Below, one piece after another: positions 7,079-62,333 of a stretch of DNA of 64,000 nt. The position numbers were made by a program, and so were the translations under genes. The stretch lies in contig QPFY01000018.1 in NCBI GenBank assembly GCA_003665825.1, positions 1-64,000 on the forward strand, given 5' to 3'. The notes below the pieces were generated by a model. The model had not been told where the DNA came from, made no database searches, and saw nothing but the letters and a program-made list of their open reading frames with translations. The stretch is from Microbotryum silenes-acaulis. Taxonomy: Eukaryota > Basidiomycota > Microbotryomycetes > Microbotryales > Microbotryaceae. How positions within the stretch are numbered: position 1 is the stretch's first letter; each line of letters opens with the position of its first letter.

Positions 7079-7298
7079 TGTGAGGAATCCACTCTCCGCT
7101 CGGGTCAGGACTTAGGCGCGCGGAGCGAGCCGGGCGCATCGGCTCAGGACTTAGGCGCGCGCAGCGAGCCTGGCACATTGGCTCAGCCCCGAGGCTCGCT
7201 GGCTGAGGACTTGGGGCGCGCGGCTCCCTTACTGTTAGATTCCTATTCATCACTCTTGGCTATAACTACATCGCTGACGTAGTAGAGTTGATCGAATA
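7079..7298 (+). repeat. 5' LTR of copia element C3
   Basis: 220 bp, TGTGAGGAATCC to GATCGAATA. It is the short form of the C LTR. It lacks the 70-bp GT...AG unit found in C1 and C2 and has one fewer copy of a 39-bp GC-rich tandem repeat (cttaggcgcgcg...). It is followed by the PBS GGTTATAAGCCC at 7299-7310, one base different from the initiator tRNA anticodon-arm complement. It is inserted into the B' LTR. Confidence 0.85.
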
Positions 7299-7392
7299 GG
7301 TTATAAGCCCACGAGCTACCAGCCCCGCCGCTTGCAATTTTTCCCTCGAGCCCAGCCACTCGAGCCGCCCCAGCCCATCGCACCATCGCAGC

Positions 7393-9485
7393 ATGGACAG
7401 CTCCCCCGCCCCGCCTTCGCCCCCCAGGGACATCAGCTCCCCTGACCCTTCGATCAGCGTGCAAATCGCCACGCTACAGGCACAGCTTGCCGCTCTACAG
7501 GCCTCACAGCCCCCTGCCGCCGCCGCCGCCGCCACCCCGCCCGTCACTGCCACGCAGGCAAACACCGCCACCGCATCAAAAGTTGTGTTCCCCAAGCACG
7601 CTCGTCTTGACGGGCCTAAGTCGTTTACAAACTGGTTACGTCAACTCCGTCTCGCGCTTCCAAATCAAGTCCGTAGTTACGTTCTTGACGGTGTCATTCC
7701 CCCGACGTGGACGGCCGACCAGCTTGCCGCCCGTGACGACGCTGCGCGGGAAATCATCGTTGGCTCGATCGACTCAGCCGACGTCTCAGCCACCCTCGAC
7801 GACCTGTCGGCACCACGCATCTTCGCCGCACTCAAGGCTCGTTTCGCACCGGACGACGCCACTCGCACCCTCGAGTTGTTCGCCCGCCTTTGGGATTTCA
7901 GGAAGATGCCTGCCTCCGTCGAGGCGTACGACACGTGGCTCCGTGAATACATGTCGATCGCGCAGGAAATCCGCGACGCCAAAACCTCGCTCAACGACGT
8001 GCTCGCCACTCACGTGCTCGCCATGGTCCCACCCTGCCTCGACAGCTTCCGACTCACGTTCACGGACGAGCAGCGCAACCAACGCGACCTCCCGGAACTC
8101 ACGACGCTGACGGACCGCATTCGCATCCAGCTTCGCTCGGCGGGACTCTCGTCATCGCACTCGGCCATGCTCGCCACCGCCTCCCCTTGTCCCGCCTGCC
8201 GCGCCCCCGGCCACCGTCTGCGCGACTGCACCTCACGGGCGACACACCCGCCCGCCGGCCCCTGCCGCCGCTGCCACAAGAAAGGTCACTGGGCCCTCGA
8301 CTGCAAGCACCGGGGCGAACAGAAACACACCGGCGACGACAACCAGGACGACATGTCTCTCCCCGCCGCTCAACAGCCTAACGTCGGCTATTTCGCCTCC
8401 TGCCTGTTTGCTCGCCGGCAACTCCCGACTGACACCTTTGTAGTCGACTCGGGCGCCACGGCACACATGGTCGCCGATCGCTCTCTATTCACGGCTTATC
8501 GCCAGACGGCGCACACCAAGATTGGCGGCATTGCCGGCGGTATCACGGCCATCGGTATGGGGGACGTAGCGTTTGTTGCCAAGACCGGACATCCGATCAC
8601 GCTGCGTGGCGTTCTGCACACGCCGGGCCTCCACGTCAACCTCCTCTCCGTCTCTCGCCTCTGCGACACCGACCGTGTTCGACTCGCCTTCACCAGCGAC
8701 GGCATCAACATCGCCAAGGACGGCCAGGCCATTGCTCACGGTACCAGGGTTAACGACGGTCTCTACCTTTTGGACGCGGACCACACCAAGTGTCAGCAGC
8801 TTGCCCTTCTCTTGCGTTCTGAGTCGACTGTGCCCCTGCTTACCCTTCACCGCTGCCTCGGCCATCTTGCCCCATCCTCGATACAGAAGATGATCGCCGC
8901 AGGTTTGCTGGATGGGTTTGGGGCCGGGTACAGTGACAAAGACGTAGAGGAGTTTGTTTGCAATGCTTGCCTTGGTTCCAAAGGTCACCGTCTTCCCTTT
9001 CCCAACTCTGAGTCGCATTCCCCCGAAAGACTTGGCCTCGTGCACAGCGATGTCCTTTCGTTCCCCACTCCGTCCTTGACTGGGAAGCGCTACCTTGTCA
9101 CATTTCTTGACGACCACTCTCGCAAACTCTGGGCATACGCGATCGATCACAAAAGCGACGTCTTCCCAACTTTCCAGACTTGGCTCGCCGAAGTGGAGTT
9201 AGAGACGAACGCGCGTTTAAAAACCCTTCGCACCGACAACGACGGGGAGTACAGATCGAACGCATTCACGGAGTTCTGCAAGTCCAGGGGCATTCGTCGT
9301 CAATACTCTATCCCCTACACACCTCAGCAAAACGGTCGTGCCGAACGTGTCAATCTCTCCATTGTCGAGGGCGTCCTCGCCCTCCTTGCTGACTCCCATC
9401 TGCCGGCCACCTTTTGGGATGAAGCGGCTGCGTACTTCGTTTATTGCAAAAACAGGTGCTCACACTCAGCTTTGGCCAAACAGAC
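7393..9485 (+). pseudogene. Copia C3 Gag-protease-integrase, 3'-truncated
   Basis: The 5' half of a copia polyprotein, almost identical to C1. Gag is followed by two zinc knuckles ([14 protein letters not shown] and [14 protein letters not shown]), an aspartic protease ([11 protein letters not shown]) and the integrase with its HHCC domain and DDE core. Compared with C1 it lacks five residues in Gag (after SATLD). It also has TDNDGEY where C1 has TDNGGEY, a Gly-to-Asp change next to the second catalytic Asp. At 9485/9486 the sequence jumps without a stop into family A Gag. RT, RNase H and the 3' LTR are missing. Confidence 0.85.
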
Positions 9486-11615: not shown

Positions 11616-11830
11616 AGTTGGTGTGTTGGGAATGAGGGTTAGGAATGGCGCGTTCATTGGTAATCTGTTTAGAAGTGCTCGTCTGTTTAGTGAAGCCTGG
11701 CGATGCGCACCAACCGTTGTCTTCTCTCCACGGTTGGATTACACGCTCGTCAGGTACGCATGTTTAGCTTCACAGCCACTTTCGTTGCAATTAACTGACG
11801 GTTGGATTACACGCTCGTCAGTCTCTTATT
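11616..11830 (+). repeat. Y1 5' LTR
   Basis: 215 bp running from AGTTGGTGTG to TCTCTTATT. The limits are set by comparing three Y LTRs with different neighbours: gtggc or gggcg before AGTTGG, and tggtagcg, ctctgagg or gtggcccc after TTATT. It therefore lacks the usual TG...CA ends. It contains a 68-bp GT...AG unit (11754-11821). Confidence 0.8.
11754..11821 (+). other. Intron-like duplicated unit in Y LTR
   Basis: 68 bp that starts GTACGC immediately after CTCGTCAG and ends with a second copy of GGTTGGATTACACGCTCGTCAG-type sequence (about 25 bp repeated). It contains TTAACTGAC, a branch-point-like motif, about 30 nt before the final AG. The same unit is present at 29192-29259 and in Y2. No unit-less Y LTR is seen in this window. 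Confidence 0.6.
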
Positions 11831-11895: not shown

Positions 11896-13927
11896 ATGGC
11901 TACGACCTCGGTGGATTCCGGGTCCGCCACTCATCGCGGCCTTATGGGCGACCTGTATGGCAATGTCGACGCCACAAATTGGGGAACGGCCAAGGATCGA
12001 CTCCAACGGGTGTTGGAGGGCGATGGCCGGTTCAAGCACGTCACGACCGAACTCAGCGTTGGCCCCGAGCCCGAACAGTCCGAGTTCACCCGTACGCTGG
12101 GTGGCTCCACTGTGGCCGACGTAGCCACGTTCCGTACACAACATCGGAACTACCGTCATGACGTCGACGACCTCGATCAAGCCTTGGCGCAGGCCCGCAA
12201 CATCTTGTTCGTGTGCCTGGGGGAGGCCACGTTCGCGCGCATCGCAGACCAGCCAACGCACGAGCTGTGGGCGGCCCTCGATAAGGATCTCGGCGCCGCA
12301 TCCCACGACTTCGCGCGGTCGGAGAAACTCGATGCTCTTTTCCAATACCAAGCCTACGTCGATGGAGACCCTCTCGACCCTTGGTTGTCGCGCTTCAACC
12401 GGCTGTTCGTCGATCTCAACGCCGCGCATGTTTCCCGCGACAAGGCCTACCAGCGCGCCAAGATCGACGGGGTCAAGTACACGCAAGCTGAGTTTGACAA
12501 GTGGGTTCCGCCGCCTGCGTTGTCGGAAGGCATCCGCATGGACCTCTTGAAGGCGAGGATGCCACGGCCTATTGTCACGGTTATCGACGCCCTCGGCCCT
12601 ATCCCGTCGCTCAGTGATGTGGAGGGCGCGATTCGTCGCGCGGCGATGTCTCGCTCTTCCGGCACCGACGTCGCCGAAGCCCTCGCGGCGAAGACTCAGG
12701 GTCGTCGCAGGCGCCCCGCTCGTTCGTCAGGCAAACCGAAGTCCAGTTTTCTCTCGGCTTCGAAGGTACCGGGTCTCGTGGACAAGTGGCCGCACGGGGT
12801 TGCGCAGAACGGTCGCCTGAGGCTGGGCCCGTCGCAGTGTCGGAAATGCTACGAGCAGGGTCATCTTGGCGACGAATGTACCGTCCCCTCGACCGAACTG
12901 TGCCGTCGTCGGGTTGCCGTCTTAGCCAAGCACAACATCTCCATCGGCGCGGCCGACGCGATGGCGCTCGTGGCTGAGTACGGTCCCGACCCATCGGTTG
13001 ACGACGACTCTTACGTGAACTATTTTGCCGAGGTCGCCCTTGACACCGAAGTCTCTGCGCTGTACTTGCACGACGGTCCCCGCTACCTCCTTGACTCGGG
13101 GGCGACGCGCCACATGACCACTCGTCGGGATCTCTTGGTCGACTTCCAGCCTTTCACGACGGAGCGGGTGCGCGTAGTCGGCGCATTCAAGTCCAGCGCC
13201 ATGGCTGTCGGCAAGGGCACCCTTCGCTTTGACGCCAATGGCGCGCCTCTCGAGCTCCGCAACGTCCTTCTCGTCCCGGGTCTGTCCGCCGAGCTCGTCT
13301 CTCTTGCCAGTCTCATGAAGGATGGGTACCAGCTGTCTGGGATTTGCGACGCCGCGGGCGCACACTCTGGTCTCACCATCTCGGGTCCGGCTTCGAGTCT
13401 CACCTTCGCTCTCGATCGCAACCACTACGTTCTCCAGGCGAGTCCGGCCTCACCTCCTCTGGCGGATCACCACGCGCTGACAGCCACCTCCTTGCCTACA
13501 GATGTAGTGCTTTGGCATCAGCGTTTGGGTCATCTGTCCTGGGGTCGTTTGGTAGAAGTTGCTAAGTCGGGCGACATTTCCCTCGACATCTCTGCTGTAA
13601 CCCGGGATCAACTTCGTCTCCTCGATCAGTGCGATGCCTGCTGCTCCGGCAAGGCCGTGTCTGCCCCCAGTCGTGAGGCTGCCCACCACCCCGCCGACGC
13701 ACCTTTCGCTCGGGTCTTCGCCGACGTGTGGGGGCCTTCCCCTGTCCCTGCTCTCTCCGGCGTCCGATATCTGTGCGGTGTCACGGATGAATACTCGCGT
13801 TTCCGCTGGGCTCGCGGCATTCGGCTCAAGAGCGAGGCTTCGTCCGTACTCAAGGGCTTCGTTGCGATGTCGAAAATCCAGTATGCTGGCCCGGGAGTGG
13901 CGACCTTGCGCACGGATAGGGGGGGTG
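11896..13927 (+). CDS. Y1 Gag-protease-integrase (first part)
   Basis: The start is taken at the ATG at 11896 (MATTSVDSG), 57 bp after the PBS. The open frame continues upstream through the LTR into A2, but that is fortuitous. Gag covers about residues 1-310 and ends with one zinc knuckle, [14 protein letters not shown] (C-x2-C-x4-H-x4-C, residues 315-328). The protease block [11 protein letters not shown] is near residue 398. The pre-integrase/HHCC region has HQRLGHL and CDACCSGK. The integrase core starts with FADVWG and reaches TLRTDRGG, where G1 inserted at 13927/13928. The frame then resumes at 21371 (GGEFVNN). Gag is clearly different from the Gag of A and C (no [10 protein letters not shown] block). 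Confidence 0.85.
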
Positions 13928-14498
13928 TGACAGGCGACGTCGGCGAGGATGACGTCGTCTACACGACGAAGGACGGGGGTGTCGAGGAGTATCGGCTGTG
14001 GTGGCGGCAGTCGGCGAGGGAGCGATCGAAGAGGGGTGTCGACCGAAAAGCTCGCGGGAAGTCAAGTATAACGGACTTTATTCCAACGATCGGCAAGGAG
14101 AGGGGGGGGCCAATAAGATGATGAGCGGACCAGGCTCCGGCGGAAGGTGTCGAAACCGAAGGGAGGGACTGCCCAGGCGCCGAGGGAACTCAGCCAAATC
14201 AAACTACTCCAAGAGGTCGCCTCAGGGGTAAAAAGGATTGCTCGCGGGAGCACCGGTAAAAACCCTGAGGCCGCGCCTCAGCTAGCAAAAAAGATAAAAC
14301 AAATCGAAAGAAGATTGCGCTCGCAACGCATCGAACCTGCAACCAGCGGGTGCGCGCCCACGCGCCAAACGGCTACACCACGACGCCCGCGATGCTTGAA
14401 ACGAATCCGCCATTGGGTCAAGTCATCGCTACCTGCACACAACCTCGGGGAAGACTTCCTTTGAGTACTGCTGTCAGTGTACCGCTGTCATCCTGACA
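13928..14498 (-). repeat. G1 3' LTR
   Basis: 571 bp, nearly identical to the 5' LTR (one G fewer in a G-run and one A/G difference). It carries the same short in-LTR ORF that opens the polyprotein in the 5' LTR, and a tRNA-like stretch on the minus strand at about 14316-14392. Confidence 0.9.
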
Positions 14499-14519
14499 CT
14501 GTCCCCCCCAAAAGGAAGT

Positions 14520-17500
14520 CTACCGTGCGGCGAGGCGGCGGTTCGAGCGATCGAGGCGCGCAAAGTAGGCGTCGAGGACGGACGGATGGTCCAGGCGAAG
14601 GGACTGCTCTGACATCCAAGTATCGTCGGTGTCGTTACGGCCTACCCATCGCACCAAGAACGAACGAGCGCCCCGAGCGTTCCGCCGATCGCGAACAATC
14701 CGTTCCGGAATCGCAGAGTTGTCGGCCGCATCGGCTACATCTTCGACAAAAAGAACTGCGGGGTCACGCCCAGGGAACCTTTCAGCATCATTCTCAATGT
14801 AAGGGCGAAGCAGTCGAGCATGGAAGCGATTGTGCACTCGCGACATGGCTGGTGGAAGCTCGAGGTCGTAGCTGGATGTTGCCGGAATTGCCGCTCGAAT
14901 ACGGAAAGGGCCGATGTAGCGCGGCAACAACTTCGACTTCATCCCTTCAGGAACTGCCAGATTCTTTGTCGAAAGGTAGACGTAACTGCCGGTCCGAAAG
15001 GCGGGGTCATCCGGGCGTCGATGCTTGTTGGCCTGATAGGACTGGTCGAGGCGTGCTCCAATGATCGCATCCGTGACATCGAGGTTCCGTAACTGTCGAG
15101 TCCGAGCAAACGCTTCCGCCCGAGGGACAGCCGAGACAGACCAGGAATCGGTGGGCCAACGTCGAGGAAGGTAGCCGTAAGTCGCCTCGAAAGCCGACAA
15201 AGACGTGGACACAGCAACAGAAGAGTTAAGAGCGAACTCAGCTTCAACTAGACGAGATGCCCAAGCCTCGTGATTTGACGACACCATGATCCGCAGTGTT
15301 TGGGTGACCATCTTGATCCGATTCTCGCTCGATCCGTCCGTCTCGGGGTGTGCCGCGGTTGACATTCGCAAGACGGCGCCAACCTTTGCCTGCAATGCCC
15401 GCCAAAACTGCGAGGTGAACTTGGGATCGCGGTCGGAAACGATGGCTGAAGGCGTCCCATGCAGTCGAAAGATGGTGGCGTAGTACTTCTCGGCAACGAG
15501 CTCAGAGTCGGCGTCGGCTGGGAGGGGAATTAGGTGGACCATCTTTCCCCAAGTGTCAGTGACCACCATGATTTGAGCGACCATCATCCCTTCGAACTCG
15601 ACCGGAGGCAGTCCTGTCATGAAGTCGATCGCCACTTGTTCCCAAGGACCGGAGGGGATCGGCATTGGGTGCAGTCGGCCATAGGGAACTTGAGTGGACG
15701 CCTTGCCGCGGGCACAGTCTTCGCAGGAACGGCAGAACTCAGCGCAATCGGCAGACATGGACGACCACCAATACAAAGGACGTATGGCGGCCAAGGTGAT
15801 GCGATGTCCCGCGTGCCCGACGCTCCGATGTATCTCCGAAAGCACGAGCTCGCGCAGCGACGGGACCTTGTCGGAATCGACGACGCCGGTAGCGAGACCA
15901 CGAGGCACAAACAGGGAAAGAGACTCATCTGGATGTACGCGCAAGATCCTCCCTTCCTCGGTCACCCGAAACATAGGCCATGATATTGGGTCGGTAATGA
16001 TGACCTGGGCTTGCGAATCGTTGGTGTATGCTCGGATGATGGTGTCGAGGAAGGGTTGGGGCAGTGGATCAGGCGGCCGATGGACTACAGGTGCGTCGTT
16101 GACTGCATCGGCAGCGACTCCCAACAAATCGAGTTCATCAGCGTCGGCATCAACCGGAATGGGCGGGTCGTTGGCCGAGGCCGCAGCGATAGCGTGAACT
16201 CGATTGACGGCGATGGGAGGAGGAAGGGGGCCGGTAGACAAGTCGACGGCGTCCATTATGTTCTCGGCGAGGCGATGGGAACCGGGAGAGCCTGAATTGT
16301 AACCGTGTCCCCAGGGCCCGAAGGCACAATCAACAGCCGGCAACCGGTCGTGCGAAGGTGAGGTGTAAGGACGTTCCTCGAGGAGGCTCTCACCGGGCGT
16401 AGTGAACTCGTGGCATTCTTCCTTCAAGAACAAATTCCCCAAATCCCGTCCATTCACATCCTCGTCTTGCGATTCCTCCTTGAGCGCGTAGTATCCGGGA
16501 GAGCCTGCCTCGCAATCGTCGCGTTGGGGCCCGAGGGCAAAATCAACAGGAGGCAACCGATCGGGAGATGGAGAGGTGTAAGGACGTTCCTCGGGGAGGC
16601 TCTCACCGGGCGTAGTGAATCCGTGGCGTTCTCCATCAAAGAACATGTCCTCCAACTCATTCTCCTCGACCTGATCCTCGTACGATCCCTCCTTGACCTC
16701 CCACAAGCGCGACAATGAATCAGCAAGGGAGTTGTTCCTGCCGGCGATGAATTCAAACTCAAAGTCGAAACGGCTGAGTTCGAGACACATGCGGATGTGC
16801 CGAGGCGTTTGGCGTAACTTCTGCGTTTTGATCGTGCGAAGGGCTTGATGGTCGGTGACGATGACGAAGGGGTAGCCAATCAAGTGCTGCTCGAACGCCC
16901 GACACGCCGAAACGACGGCTAGGAACTCCTTATCAGTTACATGATAGTTGAGCTGAGCACCGTTGAACTTAGCGGAAAAGAATCGGGTAGGGATGGCCTG
17001 CGAACGAGTGGGCCCCGAGGCCAGGCAAGCACCAATGCCAACACGACTGGCATCGGTGAACAGGTAGATCTTGTGCTCGCCGGAGGTGACCTTAGCGCCG
17101 TCGATCGGTCGCAGCGTTGCTGGGACGAGGGACTTGACGGTGTTGAAGGCCTGCTGTTCGCGGTCGTTCCAACGCCACGAAGTCGATTGCGCCAACAACG
17201 CGGTGATCGGCTCCAAAATCGTCGAGAGGTGTGATAGGTGATCTCGCATCCAATTGACGGTGCCGAGGAAACGCTGGATGTCGCACTTGTTGCACGGAAT
17301 CGGCCACTGTCGGATACGCTCCCACTTGGCGGGGTCGACCTCGATGCCGTTGTCGGAGATGATGACACCCAACGAATCCAACGACTTGGAGAACCACTCG
17401 GATTTGTTGGATCCTAAGTAGAATCGGTAGTGTCGCAATGTCATCAGCAAGATCTCGATGTGTCTCAAGTGCGCTCGACGAGTATCGGAGTGGACGTGAA

Positions 17501-21668: not shown

Positions 21669-21945
21669 TATGAAGATGCGACGACTGCTCAAGCGGTGGT
21701 TAGGCTCTGATCGACGGACCAAGGAGACCAGACCAAGAAGTTGCTTGAGCAGGAGAGTGAGAAGTGCGGAGCCAGTTGGCTGAGGTAAGCTCGGGGCTGG
21801 CTCCGTGGCCTGTGTCAGGCGCACGGACCCAGCCCAGTGAGGAAGAGAGCTAGGTGGGAAAAGGCAGGCCAAAAACCAAGAGAAGACAAGGAAAGGAAGT
21901 GAGGGATGATATGAGAAGGAAATAGAAGAGGTTGTCAATCTCACA
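21669..21945 (-). repeat. X1 3' LTR (short form)
   Basis: 277 bp. Single copy of the 62-bp CAAGCAACTTCTTGG...GAGCAG segment; both GT...AG units are missing. Confidence 0.9.
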
Positions 21946-26319: not shown

Positions 26320-26433
26320 GCTGAGTCGTGCGAAGCGCCGGGCGAGGCTGAGCCGTGCGAAGCGCGAAAAAATTCAACAGGCAAAGGCGGGCACGAAGGT
26401 GGCCGCGCTGGTAGGTCGTATGGGCTTATAACC

Positions 26434-29268
<2,835 letters not shown>

Positions 29269-29811: not shown

Positions 29812-32278
<2,467 letters not shown>

Positions 32279-35200
32279 GGTTATAAGCCCACGAGCTACC
32301 AGCCCCGCCGCTTGAAATTTTTCCCTCGAGCCCAGCCACTCGAGCCGCCCCAGCCCATCGCACCATCGCAGCATGGACAGCTCCCCCGCCCCGCCTTCGC
32401 CCCCCAGGGACATCAGCTCCCCTGACCCTTCGATCAGCGTGCAAATCGCCACGCTACAGGCACAGCTTGCCGCTCTACAGGCCTCACAGCCCCCTGCCGC
32501 CGCCGCCGCCTCCCCGCCCGTCACTGCCACGCAGGCAAACACCGCCACCGCATCAAAAGTCGTGTTCCCCAAGCACGCTCGCCTTGACGGCCCTAAGTCG
32601 TTTACAAACTGGTTACGTCAACTCCGTCTCGCGCTTCCAAATCAAGCCCGTGGTTACGTTCTTGACGGTGTCATTCCCCCGACGTGGACGGCCGACCAGC
32701 TTGCCGCCCGTGACGACGCCGCGCGTGAAATCATCGTTGGCTCGATCGACTCAGCCGACGTCTCAGCCACCCTCGACACCATCCCCAGCGACGACCTGTC
32801 GGCACCACGCATCTTCGCCGCACTCAAGGCTCGTTTCGCACCGGACGACGCCACTCGTACCCTCGAGTTGTTCGCCCGCCTTTGGGACTTCAGGAAGATG
32901 CCTGCCTCCGTCGAGGCGTACGACACGTGGCTCCGTGAATACATGTCGATCGCGCAGGAAATCCGCGACGCCAAAACCTCGCTCAACGACGTGCTCGCCA
33001 CTCACGTGCTCGCCATGGTCCCACCCTGCCTCGACAGCTTCCGACTCACGTTCACGGACGAGCAGCGCAACCAACGCGACCTCCCGGAACTCACGACGCT
33101 GACGGATCGCATTCGCATCCAGCTTCGCTCGGCGGGACTCTCGTCATCGCACTCGGCCATGCTCGCCACCGCCTCCCCTTGTCCCGCCTGCCGCGCCCCC
33201 GGCCACCGTCTGCGCGACTGCACCTCACGGGCGACACACCCGCCCGCCGGCCCCTGCCGCCGCTGCCACAAGAAAGGTCACTGGGCCCTCGACTGCAAGC
33301 ACCGGGGCGAACAGAAACACACCGGCGACGACAACCAGGACGACACGTCTCTCCCCGCCGCTCAACAGCCTAACATCGGCTATTTCGCCTCCTGCCTGTT
33401 CGCTCGCCGGCAACTCCCGACTGACGCCTTTGTAGTCGACTCGGGCGCCACGGCACACATGGTCGCCGATCGCTCTCTATTCACGGCTTATCGCCAGACG
33501 GCGCACACCAAGATCGGCGGCATCGCCGGCGGTATCACGGCCATTGGTATGGGGGACGTAGCGTTCGTTGCCAAGACCGGACATCCGATCACGCTGCGTG
33601 GCGTTCTGCACACGCCGGGCCTCCACGTCAACCTCCTCTCTGTTTCTCGCCTCTGCGACACCGACCGCGTTCGACTCGCCTTCACCAGCGACGGCATCGA
33701 CATCGCCAAGGACGGCCAGGCCATTGCTCACGGTACCAGGGTTAACGACGGTCTCTACCTTTTGGACGCGGATCACACCAAGTGTCAGCAGCTTGCCCTT
33801 CTCTCGCGTTCTGAGTCTACCGTGCCCCTGCTTACCCTTCACCGCTGCCTCGGCCATCTTGCCCCATCCTCTATACAGAAGATGATCGCCGCAGGTTTGC
33901 TGGACGGGTTTGGGGCCGGGTACAGTGACAAAGACGTAGAGGAGTTTGTTTGCAATGCTTGCCTTGGTTCCAAAGGCCACCGTCTTCCTTTTCCCGACTC
34001 TGAGTCGCATTCCCCCGAGAGACTCGGCCTCGTGCACAGCGATGTCCTTTCGTTCCCCACTCCGTCCTTGACCGGGAAGCGCTACCTTGTCACATTTCTT
34101 GACGACCACTCTCGCAAACTCTGGGCATACGCGATCGATCACAAAAGCGACGTCTTCCCGACCTTCCAGACTTGGCTCGCCGAAGTGGAGTTAGAGACGA
34201 ACGCGCGTTTAAAAACCCTTCGCACTGACAACGGCGGGGAGTACCGATCGAACGCATTCACGGAGTTCTGCAAGTCCAGGGGCATTCGTCGTCAATACTC
34301 TATCCCCTACACACCTCAGCAAAACGGTCGTGCCGAACGTGTCAATCTCTCCATTGTCGAGGGCATCCTCGCCCTCCTTGCTGACTCCCATCTGCCGGCC
34401 ACCTTTTGGGATGAAGCGGCTGCGTACTTCGTTTATTGCAAAAACAGGTGCTCACACTCAGCTTTGGCCAAACAGACTCCAGAATCCGTTTGGAACGGCC
34501 GACGCACCACCACCACCGCCCTCCACCCGTTCGGCTGCGCGGCCTGGCTCACGGTCGCGCCGGACCTTCGCAGCAAGCTCGACCCCAAGGCCGCGCGCGT
34601 GATCTTCACCGGTTACGACCTCGCCTCCAAGGCTTTCCGTTTCTTCGACCATTATACCAACAAGGTTGTGATTGGCCGAAATGCCACCTTCCTCGACGAC
34701 GACTTCCCCGGCCTCCCAATCAACACGCCCGTCGATGTGGACAACACCGAACGCCAGTTCGTCATTCCCGCCGACACGCCCGCCCCCGCCGTCAAGACGA
34801 GGACCCCACTAGTAAGGTCGGCGCACATGGACGTCTCATCCTCTCTTGATGATTCTGCCATGAGCGCCGTTGACGTGGCCCCAGGGTACACTGGCGGATC
34901 CTTACTTAATTCTACAGATATCAGCCCCTCGCCGTCCCCGTCGCTTGTCCCGCTTTCGTCGCCCGCCACGTCCTCGGCCGGAGGACCGTCCCTCGATGAC
35001 TCGGACGACCCGCTTGACCTCCTCAACTCCAACACCGCGGTTCGCCTCAACCTGATGGACGTACATCGATCCGACGACGACACCCTGGTGACGCCCGCAC
35101 CCGCCATTGCCCCCGCTGAACAGCCCTCCGATGACGACTCCCCTGATGAGATCGATTTCCTCTCTCGCCACCACCGCGCCTTCATCGCCACAGACGACGA

Positions 35201-36847
35201 CGACCCCACCCTCGACGCCATCGAGCCCGTCAAGTCGATTACTAGCGATCCTCAGACCTGGCGCGAAGCAATGTCCAGCGACGAGCACGACATCTGGGCT
35301 CAGGCTGCCGCCGCCGAGTTCACCGCCATGCGCGACGACTTCAAGGTGTTCACCATCGAGCCTCGATCCTCCGTACCACCGGGCGCCACTATCGTCACCT
35401 CCAAGTTCGTCTGGAAGACCAAACGCGACGCACGCGGCGAAGTCACGGGGCACAAGGCACGTCTCGTAGCGCAAGGTAACCGACAACGCGACGGCATCGA
35501 CTTCTCGGAGACTTTCGCACCCGTCGCCCGGTTCTCCTCCATTCGCTGCCTCCTTGCCCTCGCCGCTGCCAATGGTTACCACGTTCATCAGGCCGACATC
35601 GACAAGGCTTACCTCCACGGCGAGCTCGATCACGATATCTGGATGACGACGCCACGAGGTTTCGACTTCCCAAGTGATAAGATTCTCCGCCTGCGGCGCT
35701 CAATCTACGGTCTCAAGCAGGCCGGTCGCATCTGGAATCGCCACATTGACACATCACTCAGGAGTCTCGGGTACAAGGCAACGGGCACTGATCACTGCAT
35801 TTACTCTCACATTGATGATCAGCAACGGCCCCATTATATCGCCTTGTATGTCGACGATCTCCTCATTGTCAGCCCCGCCCTCGACGAGATCGAACGCGTC
35901 ATCTCCGGCCTCGAACAACGATACGGCGTCAAACGACTCGGCCCCGCGGAATACATCCTCGGCATCCAAATCCGCCGCCTGGACGACGGCTCCATTGCCC
36001 TATCCCAGGAACGCTACATCATGGACGTGCTCGCCCGGTTTCACTTCGACACCACGACACGCGGCGCTACGGTGCCAATGACGCCCGGCCTCTCGCTCAC
36101 GGCAGTTCCGGGTCAAGGAACGGAGCGCATTCGATCGTGGTACCTACAAGCCATTGGCTCCCTCCTGTACATTTCCCTTGGCACTCGACCCGACATTGCC
36201 TTCGCCGTCTCGTACTTGTCCCGGTTCGCCAACAACCCTGGCCGCCGTCATTGGATTGCCGTCAAACACGTCCTTCGCTACCTTCGCGCCACGTACCGCG
36301 ATGAGCTACTCTACGCCCGCGGTCCAGCCAAAGTTACGGGTGTGGTTGGGTATTCCGATGCGAACTGGGGTGCCTGCGTCGACACGTCCATCTCCACAAT
36401 GGGCTTCGTCTTTTACTTGGCCGGCTCCGCCGTCTCTTGGTCATCGAAGCGTCAGACTCGGGTGGCGGATTCCACCACTGATGCCGAATACCTCGCCTTG
36501 TCGCACGCTGGTAAGGAAGCGATTTACCTTACGCAACTCCTCTCCGAGCTCCACGTTCGCCCGATCGATGCAGCTCACATCTTCACCGACAACGAGGCCG
36601 CGGCCGCCGTCGCTCACGACCCCGTTCGCACCTCCGGCACTCGACACATACGCCTCCGCGAGCATTTTGTCCGCGACATGGTCAACCGAGGCGATATCTC
36701 CCTCTCACACGTTGGCACAGCGGACATGGTTGCGGACCTATTCACCAAAGCGCTGGGTCCCAAGATTTTTGGTATACATTGCTATGCTCTAGGCCTCCGG
36801 ACGCGGCACCCACGGCTCAAGTCTACCTCGCGTTCGCGTGGGGGGGG

Positions 36848-38511
<1,664 letters not shown>

Positions 38512-38530: not shown

Positions 38531-40291
<1,761 letters not shown>

Positions 40292-44861: not shown

Positions 44862-45190
44862 TATTCGATCAACTCTACTACGTCAGCGATGTAGTTATAG
44901 CCAAGAGTGATGAATATCATTTCAACATACCTATTCGATCAACTCTACTACGTCAGCGATGTAGTTATAGCCAAGAGTGATGAATAGGAATCTAACAGTA
45001 AGGGAGCCGCGCGCCCCAAGTCCTCAGCCAGCGAGCCTCGGGGCTGAGCCAATGTGCCAGGCTCGCTGCGCGCGCCTAAGTCCTGGGCCGATGCGCCCGG
45101 CTCGCTCCGCGCGCCTAAGTCCTGGGCCGATGCGCCCGGCTCGCTCCGCGCGCCTAAGTCCTGACCCGAGCGGAGAGTGGATTCCTCACA
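44862..45190 (-). repeat. C2 5' LTR
   Basis: 329 bp, long form. The GT...AG unit, read on the minus strand, occupies 44861-44930, its last G falling in the PBS. Confidence 0.92.
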
Positions 45191-47667: not shown

Positions 47668-47972
47668 TGTGAAGAGTCCACTCTCAGCTCGACAGGGGCG
47701 CCTCGGTCGTTGCGCGCGCGCGCTAGCCCGCCCCCTTGCGGTGGCGACTTGGGCGCGCCGGCGCCCGCTAGGCCGCCCCCTTGCGGTGGGGACTTAGACG
47801 CGCACGACTGCCTCAGCCCGCCGGCGATTTCGCCCGCGGCTGACTTAGGGACGTTCATTGCCACGCGCCTGGGCCTATCCCAGCGCGGCCCCTCTTTCTG
47901 TTTCTTAGCTTCCTTCTCATCACTTCTGTTCGACGCTCAACCTCTCCTGACAGTAGTGGTGATCGTCTCATA
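47668..47972 (+). repeat. A3 5' LTR
   Basis: 305 bp, TGTGAAGAGTCC to CGTCTCATA, followed by PBS GGTTATAAGCCC (47973-47984). Contains GC-rich repeats (gcccccttgcggtgg). No GT...AG unit. Confidence 0.9.
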
Positions 47973-47980
47973 GGTTATAA

Positions 47981-50899
<2,919 letters not shown>

Positions 50900-51207
50900 T
50901 GTTGAATTCCATACACTCTTGCTTAGATCAATCTCCAATCCGCGCCGCGCCTGGCTAGCCGCGCCGCTTGGACCTCTCTTTGGACTTAGAGATATTTCGC
51001 ACACTCGCACTGCGCGCCTCTTTAGTCTTCCCCCTAACGCTCCAAACTACTCCCTTACAACCCGTACTCTGTCTCGTGTACTTACTGGTTGCCGATCCAG
51101 GTTAGTTGCAATCCTAACGCTCCAAACTACTCCCTTACAACCCGTACTCTGTCTCGTGTACTTACTGGTTGCCGATCCAGTCCCCTCTCGAGACATACGG
51201 TTTAACA
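50900..51207 (+). repeat. Z 5' LTR (long form)
   Basis: 308 bp, TGTTGAATTCC to GGTTTAACA. It equals the 228-bp solo LTR at 29901 plus exactly 80 bp (51101-51180). The left flank in A3 is caggct; the other end is outside the window. Confidence 0.88.
51101..51180 (+). other. Intron-like duplicated unit in Z LTR
   Basis: 80 bp beginning GTTAGTTGCAAT right after GATCCAG and ending with a second copy (about 67 bp) of CTAACGCTCC...GCCGATCCAG. A TACTTACTGG branch-like motif lies about 20 nt before the final AG. The first 12 bases are identical to those of the unit in the B LTRs, although the two LTR families are otherwise unrelated there. Confidence 0.65.
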
Positions 51208-51218
51208 GGTTATGAGCC
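51208..51218 (+). promoter_or_regulatory. Z primer-binding site with micro-uORF
   Basis: GGTTATGAGCC is the exact complement of the initiator tRNA-Met anticodon arm. Its ATG opens a four-codon ORF (M-S-P-S-stop, 51212-51226) just before the Z ORF start at 51239. Confidence 0.7.
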
Positions 51219-51238
51219 CGAGCTAAAGCTGCTCCACG

Positions 51239-51615: not shown

Positions 51616-52103
51616 TATGAAGTTACGACGACTGCTCAAGCAGTGGTAAGGCTCTGATCGACGGACCAAGGAGACCAGACCAAGAAGTTGCTTGTTACAC
51701 ACCTGCTCAAGCAGTGGTAAGGCTCTGATCGACGGACCAAGGAGACCAGACCAAGAAGTTGCTTGTTACACACCTGCTCAAGCACTACAGTGAGTTATGA
51801 TAGCTAGTAAAGATAAAGGAAGAAGGAAATGTAGTGCTCACCTGCTCAAGCAGTGGTAAGGCTCTGATCGACGGACCAAGGAGACCAGACCAAGAAGTTG
51901 CTTGAGCAGGAGAGAGAGAAGCGCGGAGCCATTTGGCTCGGGTGAGCGCGCGGCTGGGTCTGCCACCTTTGTCAGGCGCACGGACCCAACCCAGGAAAGG
52001 GAGAGAGCCTAGGTGTGGAAGGCAGGCCAAAAAGGAGGTAAGATGAGACCAAGAAAAGGAGGCATGATGCGAGAAGGAAACATAAGAGTTTGTCAATCTC
52101 ACA
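51616..52103 (-). repeat. X2 3' LTR
   Basis: 488 bp with three tandem GT...AG units on the minus strand, next to tatgaagttacgacga. A seven-C run (polypurine tract on the minus strand) adjoins at 52104. Confidence 0.9.
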
Positions 52104-52121: not shown

Positions 52122-53674
52122 TCAGGGAGTGCAGACACCAAGTCGACCGCGGTGCCGAGCGAACAGGTCGCGAGACAAAGCCTTGGTGAAGATATCGGCC
52201 GTCATCTCGCCGGTGGCAATGTACTGTACACTGATGTCACCCAGGGAGACCATATCCCGGACGAAGTGTTCGCGGAGCCGAATATGCCGAGTGCGAGCGT
52301 GGAAGACCGGATTCTTGGTGAGGGCATTGGCACCTTGGTTGTCGCCATAGATGAGAACCGGCCGAGAGGAGGGAAGCCCAAGCTCACCAAAGAGCTGACG
52401 CAGGAAGATAGCCTCCTTGCCAGCGTGCGACAAGGCCAGGTACTCGGCGTCACAAGTAGAGTCGGCAACCCGCGACTGGAGGCGAGATGACCACGAGACG
52501 GCCGCGCCTGCGAAGACAAAGGTGTAACCCATGGTCGACTTTGAGGACATGGCGCAGGCACCCCAGTTGCAGTCGGAGTAGCCAACCAAGGGCGCCGGAT
52601 CCCCGCGGGTGTAGCGTAGGCCGTGAGACAGAGTGCCGGCGAGGTAGCGAAAGGCGTGCTTGACAGCGCCCCAGGCAGCAGCAGACGGGGACTGAGAGAA
52701 CCGAGCCAAGTAACCGACGGTGTAGGCCAGGTCGGGGCGAGTACCGGTCGAGGCGTACATGAGGGAGCCAATCGCTTGCAGATACCGAGTGCGATCCGGA
52801 AAGGGAGTAGGCTGGAGTTCGACTTCAAGGCGAAGGTCGGCCTGCATGGGTGTGGCGACAGGGTGGGCGTCGGACATGCCGAAACGAGCGAGGACGTCCT
52901 TGAGGTATTGCTCTTGACTGAGGGAGATGGAGCCGTCGGCAGAACGCCGAATCTGGATACCAAGTACGTATTCCGCCTCACCAAGTCGTTTGACACCATA
53001 GCGCTGCTCAAGGCCCTGGAGGGTACGCTCGATCTCTGGGAGGGAAGGGCTGATCATGAGCAAGTCATCGACATAGAGCGCGATATAGTGGCGCTCATCA
53101 CCGACAGTTCGGACATAAACGCAGTGGTCAGACTCCGTGGCGACGTAGCCAAGAGCCGACAAAGCAGAGTCGATCTCGTCGTTCCAGATACGTCCGGCCT
53201 GGCGCAAGCCGTAGAGTGACCGGTGCAGTTGGAGGACCTTGCCGGGCATGTAGATCCCTTCGGGCACGCGAATGTACAGGGGGGTGTCCAGTTTACCGTG
53301 GAGATAGGCCTTGTCGATGTCGGCCTGATGGACGTGGTACCCATGAGCGGCTGCAAGGGCCAGGAGTGCGCGAATGGATGTGAACTTAGCGACGGGTGCG
53401 AAGGTCTCATCGAAATCAATGCCGGAACGCTGAGAGTCACCACGAGCAACCAGTCGGCCTTTGTAAGACTTGATGTGGCCGTGTTGGTCGCGTTTCGTGC
53501 GGAAGACAAAGCGCGAGCCGAGGACTTTGGAGTCTGCAGGCACGAGGGACTCATCAATTGGTGTGAAGGCCGAGAAATCCCGGGAGAGCGAGTCGAATTC
53601 GGCCTGGGCAGCGAGACGCCACTCGTCTGCTTGCGGGGTTGCCATCGCAGCGCGCCAGTGAGGAGGGTCCCGGG
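52122..53674 (-). CDS. X2 RT-RNase H (C-terminal part)
   Basis: Continues from the interruption at DPPHWRAAMATPQADEW. It includes [63 protein letters not shown] and TADIFTKALS, ending at 52122 (GVCTP). Nearly identical to X1 and fully open. Codons beyond 53674 in this frame come from the inserted LTR. Confidence 0.9.
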
Positions 53675-54559
53675 TGTTGAATTTCATTCTACTACAAGCG
53701 TTCGAACACTTCAACTTTGGGCCGCCGTTTGTCAGGACCGCCCAGTTTTCGGCGCCTCTTTCGCCGCCGCGCGCCTTCGCCTCGGCGCCTTTGCCCTCGC
53801 TGCCAAGCCGCCCCCCAGTCTTTCGCCTCGGCGCCTTCGCCTTCACAGCCAAGCCGCCCCCCTTTTGTTCGCCGCTCCCGCGCCAGCCTGTTCAACTCAC
53901 GCTCGCGCGCCGCCGCCTCCACATCGGAACTTAGTCGGTCTACTTCTCCTGTCTTGCCAAGCCGTTGCCTCCGCCTAGCCACCGCCAGCTTGCCGCCACC
54001 GTCCTCATGTCTCATCGGCCATCCAGTGTATCGCCCATGCATGACGCCCGTTGTTCGCAACCTGGATCTTGTTGCTACGGATTGCCCAGCTCACCAACAC
54101 TCGACCAAGGTAGATAAGTTTCCCTTCGTGTACATCGTCCAACACGACACCCCTCAGAGCCTTGATGGTCCGCTTGGAGTTCGGTCTTGTAGCTTCGCAT
54201 TGTGCTAGCCCAGTTTGTCTTAGCGCGGCCCCTTGCTAGAACCTCACCCGACTCGCGCGCCCCTGTGCCTTTCTTCCTCTTCTCTACCGCTTCCCAACAT
54301 TAGCCAGACAGCTAATCTTCGGTAGAGAACAGGTTAGTTGCAATCATCATACCGCTTCCCAACATTAGCCAGACAGCTAATCTTCGGTAGAGAACAGATC
54401 GTCCAGCCGCACCGCGTCCGTCTCATCAGACCGCGCCAGTGCCGCCTCACGACTTCTCCTGTCGACCGTCCGTCGCATCCTTGCCACGTCGACGCTCCAC
54501 TAGTAGCCCTAGCGGTCGCTACGCCAAATTCCGATAAGCCCTACAGTCCACATTCAACA
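53675..54559 (+). repeat. B LTR 1
   Basis: 885 bp, TGTTGAATTTCATT to CACATTCAACA, a near-palindromic terminal octamer. It is GC-rich in the first third and contains the 65-bp GT...AG unit at 54333-54397. Confidence 0.93.
54333..54397 (+). other. Intron-like duplicated unit in B LTR
   Basis: 65 bp beginning GTTAGTTGCAAT after GAGAACAG and ending with a second copy (47 bp) of ACCGCTTCCC...GAGAACAG. GCTAAT lies about 22 nt before the AG. Repeated at 56507-56571 and 58681-58745. Missing from the solo B-type LTR at 37484-38511. Confidence 0.65.
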
Positions 54560-54563
54560 GGTT

Positions 54564-55733
54564 ATGAGCCTACTTCGACCCGAACTGCCCAGATTCCCCC
54601 CAGCACCCACGAACCCTGCCGACGACACAGCCTCGGCCGCACCTGCCCACACCGAACCACCCGTACCCGACGAAGCCGACGGCACAATGTCCAGCCACGT
54701 TGACCCCACCCTGGCCGCCAGCATTGACGAGCGCATCCACATGGAAGTCCAACGTCGCCTCCGAGAATTCACCATGTCCCCTAGCCCGGCCCCAGATCGC
54801 AGACCCCACCACAACATCGACATCCCCCGCCACCTTTCAAGCTGGCCGGCCGACGCTCTCCTTTCTGGTGTTGAAACCTTCCGCGTTTGGAACCGCACGT
54901 TACAAGACCGCGTAGGTACTACGATCTACGCCTACATCACCACTGGACACCTACCCGACCGTGCCGACGACATCGACCGTGAGAATGTCGAAATCTTTGC
55001 CGTCCGCCAAGTCTCCGATGGCGTCGCAAGTAACGTCCGCAAGTCCCTGCTCACCGTCGCCTCGACGCAACAACGCGCCCAGGCCTACTACGAACATCTT
55101 GACCACGAGTACAACCCTACGTCGGCACAGTCTACCCTTCGTATGCTTCACTCATTCTTCAACATCACCCGTGCCCCCATCGAAGAAAAGGGCTTCGTCG
55201 AATGGATGACCGACTTCCTCGACCACTCAAACTGTCTCGAGTCCGCCAATATTACAATCACCGACGTCATCACCGCCCGAGCACTTACCCTCATCCCCGA
55301 CGAACTAGATGCGTTCCGACAATACATGGAACTGCACAACACGGACAAACTTCCAACACCGGCAAACCTGATGGCCCTCGCACACAAGCAGGTCAAAAAC
55401 CATCACGACACTCGAAACGCCGGCTCGAACGTCACCGCATTCGCAGCAACCTCCTCGAACACTCCGTCATCGAACAAACCTAACACTTCATCCCGATCGT
55501 CGCAACTACCACCGGCCCGATACATGTGCCCTGCCTGTAAGATCAGCGTGCACCGCGTCCGTGACTGCCCCGACGACGAAGCACGACAACGTTACATCGA
55601 TCGCCGCAACCGACAACCACAACAACCTGTGGATCAGAATACAGACACCCCAGAGGACGCACCCGTTGTAGCATCCATCTCAAGGTTCCAAGATTTACCA
55701 GACCCCTCAACGCGCCTCGGCCAGAATTGGTAA
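54564..55733 (+). CDS. B Gag (copy 1)
   Basis: 389 codons. The ATG at 54564 is inside the PBS (GGTTATGAGCC, 54560-54570). The Gag body contains DERIHMEVQRRLREF, HLSSWPADALLSG, RQVSDGVASNV, EYNPTSAQSTL, EEKGFVEWM and TDVITARALTLIPDELD, a copia-like UBN2/DUF4219-type capsid arrangement. One zinc knuckle, CPACKISVHRVRDC (C-x2-C-x4-H-x4-C), is near residue 318. It ends well before the 3' LTR, with a short non-coding stretch and a polypurine run. No Pol domains at all. It should form particles and must borrow Pol in trans. It resembles the plant TR-GAG class in organisation. Confidence 0.9.
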   Translation: MSLLRPELPRFPPAPTNPADDTASAAPAHTEPPVPDEADGTMSSHVDPTLAASIDERIHMEVQRRLREFTMSPSPAPDRRPHHNIDIPRHLSSWPADALLSGVETFRVWNRTLQDRVGTTIYAYITTGHLPDRADDIDRENVEIFAVRQVSDGVASNVRKSLLTVASTQQRAQAYYEHLDHEYNPTSAQSTLRMLHSFFNITRAPIEEKGFVEWMTDFLDHSNCLESANITITDVITARALTLIPDELDAFRQYMELHNTDKLPTPANLMALAHKQVKNHHDTRNAGSNVTAFAATSSNTPSSNKPNTSSRSSQLPPARYMCPACKISVHRVRDCPDDEARQRYIDRRNRQPQQPVDQNTDTPEDAPVVASISRFQDLPDPSTRLGQNW

Positions 55734-55848
55734 AGTTACCCCTCCGCCCCGCGCCCAGGTCCCCCTACACCGGTCACTACCTCGTCGATTACACTACTTG
55801 CCTCAACCTCCCTTCGTGCTCTTATGGAAGCGTTCGAACGAGGGGGGG

Positions 55849-56733
55849 TGTTGAATTTCATTCTACTACAAGCGTTCGAACACTTCAACTTTGGGCCGCC
55901 GTTTGTCAGGACCGCCCAGTTTTCGGCGCCTCTTTCGCCGCCGCGCGCCTTCGCCTCGGCGCCTTTGCCCTCGCTGCCAAGCCGCCCCCCAGTCTTTCGC
56001 CTCGGCGCCTTCGCCTTCACAGCCAAGCCGCCCCCCTTTTGTTCGCCGCTCCCGCGCCAGCCTGTTCAACTCACGCTCGCGCGCCGCCGCCTCCACATCG
56101 GAACTTAGTCGGTCTACTTCTCCTGTCTTGCCAAGCCGTTGCCTCCGCCTAGCCACCGCCAGCTTGCCGCCACCGTCCTCATGTCTCATCGGCCATCCAG
56201 TGTATCGCCCATGCATGACGCCCGTTGTTCGCAACCTGGATCTTGTTGCTACGGATTGCCCAGCTCACCAACACTCGACCAAGGTAGATAAGTTTCCCTT
56301 CGTGTACATCGTCCAACACGACACCCCTCAGAGCCTTGATGGTCCGCTTGGAGTTCGGTCTTGTAGCTTCGCATTGTGCTAGCCCAGTTTGTCTTAGCGC
56401 GGCCCCTTGCTAGAACCTCACCCGACTCGCGCGCCCCTGTGCCTTTCTTCCTCTTCTCTACCGCTTCCCAACATTAGCCAGACAGCTAATCTTCGGTAGA
56501 GAACAGGTTAGTTGCAATCATCATACCGCTTCCCAACATTAGCCAGACAGCTAATCTTCGGTAGAGAACAGATCGTCCAGCCGCACCGCGTCCGTCTCAT
56601 CAGACCGCGCCAGTGCCGCCTCACGACTTCTCCTGTCGACCGTCCGTCGCATCCTTGCCACGTCGACGCTCCACTAGTAGCCCTAGCGGTCGCTACGCCA
56701 AATTCCGATAAGCCCTACAGTCCACATTCAACA
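55849..56733 (+). repeat. B LTR 2 (shared)
   Basis: 885 bp, same as LTR 1; serves as 3' LTR of copy 1 and 5' LTR of copy 2. Unit at 56507-56571; PBS follows at 56734-56744. Confidence 0.93.
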
Positions 56734-56737
56734 GGTT

Positions 56738-57907
56738 ATGAGCCTACTTCGACCCGAACTGCCCAGATTCCCCCCAGCACCCACGAACCCTGCCGACGAC
56801 ACAGCCTCGGCCGCACCTGCCCACACCGAACCACCCGTACCCGACGAAGCCGACGGCACAATGTCCAGCCACGTTGACCCCACCCTGGCCGCCAGCATTG
56901 ACGAGCGCATCCACATGGAAGTCCAACGTCGCCTCCGAGAATTCACCATGTCCCCTAGCCCGGCCCCAGATCGCAGACCCCACCACAACATCGACATCCC
57001 CCGCCACCTTTCAAGCTGGCCGGCCGACGCTCTCCTTTCTGGTGTTGAAACCTTCCGCGTTTGGAACCGCACGTTACAAGACCGCGTAGGTACTACGATC
57101 TACGCCTACATCACCACTGGACACCTACCCGACCGTGCCGACGACATCGACCGTGAGAATGTCGAAATCTTTGCCGTCCGCCAAGTCTCCGATGGCGTCG
57201 CAAGTAACGTCCGCAAGTCCCTGCTCACCGTCGCCTCGACGCAACAACGCGCCCAGGCCTACTACGAACATCTTGACCACGAGTACAACCCTACGTCGGC
57301 ACAGTCTACCCTTCGTATGCTTCACTCATTCTTCAACATCACCCGTGCCCCCATCGAAGAAAAGGGCTTCGTCGAATGGATGACCGACTTCCTCGACCAC
57401 TCAAACTGTCTCGAGTCCGCCAATATTACAATCACCGACGTCATCACCGCCCGAGCACTTACCCTCATCCCCGACGAACTAGATGCGTTCCGACAATACA
57501 TGGAACTGCACAACACGGACAAACTTCCAACACCGGCAAACCTGATGGCCCTCGCACACAAGCAGGTCAAAAACCATCACGACACTCGAAACGCCGGCTC
57601 GAACGTCACCGCATTCGCAGCAACCTCCTCGAACACTCCGTCATCGAACAAACCTAACACTTCATCCCGATCGTCGCAACTACCACCGGCCCGATACATG
57701 TGCCCTGCCTGTAAGATCAGCGTGCACCGCGTCCGTGACTGCCCCGACGACGAAGCACGACAACGTTACATCGATCGCCGCAACCGACAACCACAACAAC
57801 CTGTGGATCAGAATACAGACACCCCAGAGGACGCACCCGTTGTAGCATCCATCTCAAGGTTCCAAGATTTACCAGACCCCTCAACGCGCCTCGGCCAGAA
57901 TTGGTAA
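56738..57907 (+). CDS. B Gag (copy 2)
   Basis: Same 389-codon Gag as at 54564, no difference seen. Its ATG is again in the PBS of the middle LTR. Confidence 0.9.
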   Translation: MSLLRPELPRFPPAPTNPADDTASAAPAHTEPPVPDEADGTMSSHVDPTLAASIDERIHMEVQRRLREFTMSPSPAPDRRPHHNIDIPRHLSSWPADALLSGVETFRVWNRTLQDRVGTTIYAYITTGHLPDRADDIDRENVEIFAVRQVSDGVASNVRKSLLTVASTQQRAQAYYEHLDHEYNPTSAQSTLRMLHSFFNITRAPIEEKGFVEWMTDFLDHSNCLESANITITDVITARALTLIPDELDAFRQYMELHNTDKLPTPANLMALAHKQVKNHHDTRNAGSNVTAFAATSSNTPSSNKPNTSSRSSQLPPARYMCPACKISVHRVRDCPDDEARQRYIDRRNRQPQQPVDQNTDTPEDAPVVASISRFQDLPDPSTRLGQNW

Positions 57908-58022
57908 AGTTACCCCTCCGCCCCGCGCCCAGGTCCCCCTACACCGGTCACTACCTCGTCGATTACACTACTTGCCTCAACCTCCCTTCGTGCTCTTATG
58001 GAAGCGTTCGAACGAGGGGGGG

Positions 58023-58907
58023 TGTTGAATTTCATTCTACTACAAGCGTTCGAACACTTCAACTTTGGGCCGCCGTTTGTCAGGACCGCCCAGTTTTCGG
58101 CGCCTCTTTCGCCGCCGCGCGCCTTCGCCTCGGCGCCTTTGCCCTCGCTGCCAAGCCGCCCCCCAGTCTTTCGCCTCGGCGCCTTCGCCTTCACAGCCAA
58201 GCCGCCCCCCTTTTGTTCGCCGCTCCCGCGCCAGCCTGTTCAACTCACGCTCGCGCGCCGCCGCCTCCACATCGGAACTTAGTCGGTCTACTTCTCCTGT
58301 CTTGCCAAGCCGTTGCCTCCGCCTAGCCACCGCCAGCTTGCCGCCACCGTCCTCATGTCTCATCGGCCATCCAGTGTATCGCCCATGCATGACGCCCGTT
58401 GTTCGCAACCTGGATCTTGTTGCTACGGATTGCCCAGCTCACCAACACTCGACCAAGGTAGATAAGTTTCCCTTCGTGTACATCGTCCAACACGACACCC
58501 CTCAGAGCCTTGATGGTCCGCTTGGAGTTCGGTCTTGTAGCTTCGCATTGTGCTAGCCCAGTTTGTCTTAGCGCGGCCCCTTGCTAGAACCTCACCCGAC
58601 TCGCGCGCCCCTGTGCCTTTCTTCCTCTTCTCTACCGCTTCCCAACATTAGCCAGACAGCTAATCTTCGGTAGAGAACAGGTTAGTTGCAATCATCATAC
58701 CGCTTCCCAACATTAGCCAGACAGCTAATCTTCGGTAGAGAACAGATCGTCCAGCCGCACCGCGTCCGTCTCATCAGACCGCGCCAGTGCCGCCTCACGA
58801 CTTCTCCTGTCGACCGTCCGTCGCATCCTTGCCACGTCGACGCTCCACTAGTAGCCCTAGCGGTCGCTACGCCAAATTCCGATAAGCCCTACAGTCCACA
58901 TTCAACA
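58023..58907 (+). repeat. B LTR 3
   Basis: 885 bp, same as LTR 1 and 2, unit at 58681-58745. The right flank is the ccggg duplication and then the X2 ORF. Confidence 0.93.
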
Positions 58908-61796: not shown

Positions 61797-61845
61797 AGGC
61801 GGACACGGGAGTGGCCGCGCTGGTAGGTCGTTCGGGCTTATAACC

Positions 61846-62333
61846 TATGAAGTTACGACGACTGCTCAAGCAGTGGTAAGGCTCTGATCGACGGACCAAG
61901 GAGACCAGACCAAGAAGTTGCTTGTTACACACCTGCTCAAGCAGTGGTAAGGCTCTGATCGACGGACCAAGGAGACCAGACCAAGAAGTTGCTTGTTACA
62001 CACCTGCTCAAGCACTACAGTGAGTTATGATAGCTAGTAAAGATAAAGGAAGAAGGAAATGTAGTGCTCACCTGCTCAAGCAGTGGTAAGGCTCTGATCG
62101 ACGGACCAAGGAGACCAGACCAAGAAGTTGCTTGAGCAGGAGAGAGAGAAGCGCGGAGCCATTTGGCTCGGGTGAGCGCGCGGCTGGGTCTGCCACCTTT
62201 GTCAGGCGCACGGACCCAACCCAGGAAAGGGAGAGAGCCTAGGTGTGGAAGGCAGGCCAAAAAGGAGGTAAGATGAGACCAAGAAAAGGAGGCATGATGC
62301 GAGAAGGAAACATAAGAGTTTGTCAATCTCACA
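61846..62333 (-). repeat. X2 5' LTR
   Basis: 488 bp, same architecture as the 3' LTR. Starts (minus strand) TGTGAGATTGACAAAC and ends AACTTCATA before the PBS. Confidence 0.9.
61862..62071 (-). other. Three tandem intron-like units in X2 LTR
   Basis: Minus-strand order: 62071-62004 (68 bp, GTGAGC...GAGCAG), 62003-61933 and 61932-61862 (71 bp each, GTGTGT...GAGCAG). Each is preceded by CAG. The first contains CATAACTCAC, and all end CTTGAGCAG. X1 has two such units in its 5' LTR and none in its 3' LTR. Confidence 0.6.

Follow-up and report, generated by a model that had tools for sequence, protein, structure and literature searches.

The long terminal repeats (LTRs) of nine retrotransposon families in one fungal genome carry a GT..AG unit downstream of U3, whose 3' part usually copies the sequence just ahead of the unit. 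This unit is probably a leader intron: the spliced RNA would be reverse transcribed, and minus strong-stop DNA would land on the copy of exon 1 within the unit, thereby restoring the intron. We also lean towards a broader reading, in which a self-restoring R-U5 leader intron would be spliced from the template and returned at first-strand transfer, and the same jump would explain the birth of the unit across the nine families. The window, the whole stretch of DNA analysed, comprises 64,000 nucleotides (C18:1-64000), and genome-wide searches covered the 29.85 Mb assembly; C1, C3, C8 and similar labels before a colon denote contigs.

A gypsy polyprotein in the window (14520-20936, residues 100-1200) matched Microbotryum proteins at 60-98% identity, which indicates that the source of the units is Microbotryum, an anther-smut fungus. 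A repeat scan of the gypsy LTR at 13927-14498 detected no repeat. The unit-bearing elements show paired LTRs with a putative primer-binding site (PBS) adjoining the 5' LTR, as in Ty1/copia elements. The copia order, Pfam rve followed by RVT_2, was checked on two polyproteins among the nine families and found in both: the single polyprotein of X1 (ORF 21964-26319, minus strand) and the C1 copy of family C (ORF 32373-36884, plus strand). The putative PBS, GGTTAT(A/G)AGCCC / AGGTTATRAGCCC, which we take to pair with a half tRNA, occurs at 384 places genome-wide, versus 0 for a reversed control. A tRNA gene search with GGGCTYATAACCC gave 0 matches, and ARAGORN on seven loci yielded no tRNA for this site; the primer and PBS therefore remain putative. 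Rfam and tRNA scans of the 64-kb window returned nothing.

In families B, C, X, Y and Z, the sequence confirmed the units at the positions given in the preliminary description (Table 1). The layout is a segment S, then the unit (GT, spacer and S', a copy of S), then a segment D. S ends in AG (CAG or TAG); its first base in most families is an A preceded by a CT-rich stretch, and the Z repeat opens with CCTAACG. The spacer measures 9-44 nt and the unit 65-92 nt. D precedes the putative PBS; its length is 0 nt in C and C2 and reaches about 165 nt in B. Y carries TGGTAGCG at the PBS position. In every family examined the putative PBS lies outside the unit, except that its first G is common to both in C and C2. 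X contains an extra unit, U1, and one to three U2 units; double units are also present in C and B. The earlier statement that the 3' part of each unit copies the sequence before its donor held for S' and S and failed for U1: this unit is not a copy of S, and the rebuilding step proposed below does not account for it. The short LTR forms reported for the C3 5' LTR, the X1 3' LTR, Z and B do consist of S joined straight to D or the PBS. Family B also occurs as a tandem array (53672-58907) with a period of 2174 bp and a 389-aa ORF without a Pfam match.

Table 1. Units, short forms and associated features in the window.
Feature	Position	Strand	Remark
B, S (putative exon 1)	54286..54332	+	putative cap site to CAG
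B, unit (GT-spacer-S')	54333..54397	+	variable junction base at 54350
B, unit, array LTR 2	56507..56571	+	
B, unit, array LTR 3	58681..58745	+	
B, short form	38298..38344	+	no unit; S joined straight to D
C, S (putative exon 1)	32155..32209	+	
C, unit, 5' LTR	32210..32279	+	final G is base 1 of putative PBS
C, putative PBS	32279..32290	+	GGTTATAAGCCC
C, unit, 3' LTR	37108..37176	+	flank leaves AG incomplete
Inverted C copy, unit, 5' LTR	44862..44930	-	
Inverted C copy, unit, 3' LTR	39963..40031	-	
C3 copy, 5' LTR short form	7245..7310	+	S, then PBS directly
X1, S	26586..26647	-	
X1, unit U1	26521..26585	-	GTGAGC..CAG; no S copy
X1, unit U2	26450..26520	-	GTGTGTAAC + S'
X1, putative PBS	26422..26433	-	
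X1, 3' LTR short form	21685..21746	-	S, then D directly
X2, unit U1	62004..62071	-	
X2, tandem pair of U2 units	61862..62003	-	
X2, other LTR in window	51632..51841	-	U1 and two U2 units
Y, unit	11754..11821	+	S at 11730-11753
Y, unit, LTR copy 2	29192..29259	+	
Y, unit, LTR copy 3	38540..38607	-	
Z, unit	51101..51180	+	S at 51034-51100; putative PBS 51208-51219
Z, short form	30035..30101	+	S, then D directly
C2, short form	47919..47972	+	S, then putative PBS (47973-47984) directly

The 3' edge of the homology coincided with AG/GT in all seven families in which it could be placed. The donors were GTTAGT (B, Z, W2), GTCAGT (a Z variant, W3), GTATGT (C), GTACGC (Y, C2), GTACAC (one C2 copy), GTGTGT and GTGAGC (X), and GTCAGC (W1). 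A CTNAY motif ended 15-23 nt before the AG in nine of ten unit types, W1 having none in that range; its background was 4.7% of AG sites in the window and 13.1% in leaders. The units thus display the GT..AG ends, donor and branch-like motif of spliceosomal introns, the strict branch motif being absent in W1, and the donor-like start, the AG on either side and the CTNA(C)-like motif described previously were all recovered. Three actin-related loci gave some plausible introns of 61-87 nt with GTNNG donors, in a spliced alignment to a generic actin that also produced clear artefacts. These boundaries and motifs argue against plain tandem duplication of a U5 hairpin or regulatory element with a chance resemblance to introns, which we regard as very unlikely, and the RNA folding of S was unremarkable (z -1.7 to +0.7, eight types). 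Consistent with such an origin, duplications lacking GT do occur, both in the U3 of family C and in that of a C2-like LTR. By the preliminary description's own criterion, duplications of this kind would count against its proposal; the present ones start away from the putative start site and are therefore set apart as a different class. Those in C LTRs (31949-32153 and others) are 39-nt head-to-tail repeats with no spacer and no GT rule, and that in the C2-like LTR (5589-5741) is a diverged 70-nt direct repeat with a 13-nt spacer.

A repeat scan that did not require GT detected the same anatomy in four further families, C2, W1 (one copy), W2 (two unit copies) and W3. Leaders were read at 100 PBS places, taken from the start of the contig order (C1-C6). 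Of the 88 leaders obtained, 43 had a unit, 37 had none and 8 belonged to other families; at least 7 of the remaining 12 places match unit-bearing sequence. Copies with a unit were present in all eight families recognised in this sample (B, C, C2, W1, W2, W3, X, Z), Y being the ninth family, with a different PBS. Six of the eight also had unitless copies, C2 and W1 having none in this sample; a single odd W3 copy (L115), with its two PBSs, accounts for two of the three unitless W3 places.

Four families, B, C, C2 and X, had a hypervariable base at the junction between spacer and S', frequently a G. In B, 20 of 31 copies differed from the commonest base at this column, compared with 6 at the next highest; the spacer columns beside it stand at 3-4 because a second spacer type exists. 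The C junction deviated in 13 of 66 copies, and a column four bases inside, at -1 of a second A, in 17 of 66, all with G. C2 deviated in 4 of 12 copies, and two adjacent junction columns of X in 6 and 10 of 72. Two more variable columns in the S' of X (19/72 and 6/72) are subfamily sites, also found in S. Genome-wide, all four bases occurred at the B junction (76/76 places read), with C or T commoner than G, while 100 of 289 C places read gave T (57), G (39), C (3) and one deletion. No junction variation was seen in Y (23 copies) or Z (6 copies). A RIP-like process was ruled out as the source of these changes, given that all four bases and insertions occur; its target in Microbotryum is TpCpG (PMC5381629). 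An origin of the spacer as tRNA read-through or an old PBS was rejected by visual comparison: past GGT in C the spacers bore no likeness to the sequence following the PBS.

By comparison, the base at the U3-S boundary of unit-bearing copies was near-invariant, with variants in 0 of 66 (C), 0 of 31 (B) and 1 of 37 (X; a separate 38-copy X alignment was anchored on this site, and 1/37 is the figure used). Without a unit, the variable base can sit at U3-S: in W2, which is mostly unitless, the -1 base was not C in 8 of 86 places, and an extra A was present in 3 of 6 unitless X copies versus 1 of 37 with a unit. Unitless C copies varied here in 0 of 11, although landing on S should mark them. Five unitless B copies had the usual T, on which the search itself was anchored.

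The position of the mark could be explained without splicing if transcription truly started at S', S and the spacer belonged to U3, and the variable base were an ordinary cap-marked U3/R junction. We consider this unlikely. It leaves the AG/GT edges and branch-like motifs unexplained, together with the identity of S and S' in 212 of 228 units. Furthermore, where the unit is missing but the CT-rich U3 is the same, transcription has no place to start other than at or near S, and unit-bearing copies would start at least 65 nt further from the same promoter. The identity exceeds expectation within families as well: S and S' agree in 35 of 43 B units (20.1 expected if independent) and in 66 of 70 X units (38.3 expected), and the eight sites in S that distinguish Z from its variant differ likewise in S' (six copies).

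Strong-stop DNA made on unspliced RNA would end at S, with S' copied internally, whereas splicing of S to D would give a DNA ending at S with D directly behind it. From the mark at S', it seems that a strong-stop DNA whose terminus was the start of S had been transferred to S'. We therefore propose, as a model derived from these patterns, that S forms exon 1, with its first base as the transcription start and its end at AG/GT, and that D and the PBS lie in exon 2. After removal of the unit, the spliced RNA (cap-S-D-PBS-gag-pol-U3...) would be packaged and reverse transcribed. Minus strong-stop DNA would copy D and S up to the cap, sometimes copying the cap as G or adding a base, and would anneal to S' instead of S in the 3'-end repeat of an acceptor RNA that still contains S-GT-spacer-S'. 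Extension would then restore the spacer, S and U3, so that both new LTRs regain the intron and S' becomes a fresh copy of exon 1, sometimes with a new junction base; landing on S would generate a short LTR. The 3' copy would have to stay unspliced. C and C2 usually lack the acceptor G there; in the other families, a hypothetical poly(A) site inside S' would suffice. The first S' could have arisen from strong-stop DNA landing inside an older leader intron.

This model keeps the leader introns of the preliminary description, now with nine families, and lends no support to their suggested purpose of letting spliced mRNA coexist with unspliced genomic RNA: with the putative PBS downstream of the unit, spliced RNA would keep the PBS and the genes, and the junction marks and S-S' identity point to a spliced template. 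Similarly, the common duplication process is supported and extends to the nine families, and its "tandem duplication" would be more aptly described as an exon-1 copy introduced at first-strand transfer.

Eight B units have an S unlike their S', and four of them locate the exchange between spacer and S': U3 is of type 1, S of type a and the spacer of type I, but S' is of type c and is joined to a D known from type-c elements. The forms U1-a-I-c-D2, U1-a-I-a-D2 and unitless U1-a-D2 (U1 here meaning U3 type 1) all exist, matching the precursor and the two predicted products of rebuilding. Among the other four mixed units, two have an uninformative spacer, one joins U3 type 1 to a type-II-like spacer and one is an old divergent copy. 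Linkage between S' and D is loose in B: all three S' types (a, b and c) are found next to D2, and two of them (b and c) next to D4.

Adjacent places spaced like LTR pairs agreed in their junction base in 24 of 26 cases in B and 28 of 30 in C (drawn from 100 listed places, one double-unit element being counted twice), and W2 pairs agreed at the U3-S base in 25 of 28. Since most pairs agree, the junction change precedes or accompanies LTR duplication; the marks are thus largely inherited, and neither one event per cycle nor a per-cycle rate can be claimed. Such inheritance would also be expected if real leader introns were kept only via unspliced RNA, the junction bases were old subfamily marks and S-S' identity came from slippage or conversion. 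This alternative, which we find rather improbable, is in line with the slippage signature of one to three units in X and double units in C and B, and with the B recombinants being few and partly ambiguous. Slippage, however, does not focus change on one base while the rest of the B and C units is nearly invariant. In addition, parsimony on 32 C copies required nine changes at the ATT(C/G) column, the most inside the element, followed by an indel column with eight; the tree is poorly resolved and gives a hint only (columns 110-115 are flank, and the T/G junction is invariant in this subset). Judged from the sequences, the evidence as a whole exceeds what slippage explains.

Some pairs were discordant: only one of the two X1 LTRs has the unit, and the junction base differs within two C pairs and within three W2 pairs. 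Since one strand transfer alone cannot produce these, intermolecular transfer or later change is needed. The three W2 pairs (C1:1120435/1124645, C1:2378821/2383001, C8:200465/204678) have a 5'-side copy that departs from the usual C at U3-S, and in one of them the other copy departs as well, which suggests an intermolecular second transfer or change at an active promoter.

A related change is known from HIV-1: cap copying and mismatch extension of strong-stop DNA at minus-strand transfer convert the base just ahead of a major start site to G, at a frequency of about 5% per cycle (PMC12172438). Enzymes of the MMLV type append bases on reaching a capped RNA end (PMC6885630). Here, in contrast to HIV-1, the mark lies inside the unit downstream of U3, at the putative exon-1 copy, and other bases are common too. 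Another conceivable source of the junction base is, in place of a cap, an RNA with a 2'-5' branch, an intermediate at one time suggested for first-strand transfer in Ty1; a lariat intermediate of Ty1 is referred to in the literature (PMC1266399). We hold this to be extremely improbable, as the abundant G fits cap copying and branching by itself gives no reason for a mark within the unit and not at U3-S.

Reverse transcription of spliced RNA is a classic route of intron loss. If the proposed rebuilding is correct, these elements would escape that loss by a simple rule, retaining an intron although their template is spliced; start sites, splicing and strand transfer would also be recorded in the DNA of the units, which would provide a concrete route for the birth of new introns. 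In complex retroviruses such as HTLV-1, a splice donor lies in R, inside the 5' LTR, and subgenomic RNAs result. A donor within the 5' LTR is the feature in common with the present units, which differ in their exon-1 copy at the acceptor; we know of no such copy for HTLV-1-type donors. Introns can also be gained by tandem duplication of an AGGT-bearing sequence, in which case the whole intron is a copy of the adjacent exon, whereas only the 3' part is duplicated here and the GT spacer of 9-44 nt lies outside the repeat. Resembling introners (PMC3488318), the units are many similar putative introns; they sit in retrotransposon leaders, the only loci examined. BARE1 and Drosophila copia are likewise copia-superfamily elements with spliced RNA, predicted in our case; their splicing yields a Gag-only RNA excluded from replication (PMC3735527), unlike the present R-U5 leader unit, whose spliced RNA would keep the PBS and all genes. 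The literature searched, with most subscription papers outside it, contained no description of such an LTR unit.

The odd W3-like copy L115 (C3:1580604-1580931) reads S-D-PBS, then a partial spacer and a second S'-D-PBS, with two putative PBSs, as if a strand transfer had brought leader sequence along. Additionally, the spacers of B, Z, W2, Y, W3, C, C2 and W1 contain a TTG(C/A/G)AAT-like motif, degenerate in some and in most located near the 3' end of the spacer; it may be left over from a shared ancestral intron or serve as a 3'-end signal.
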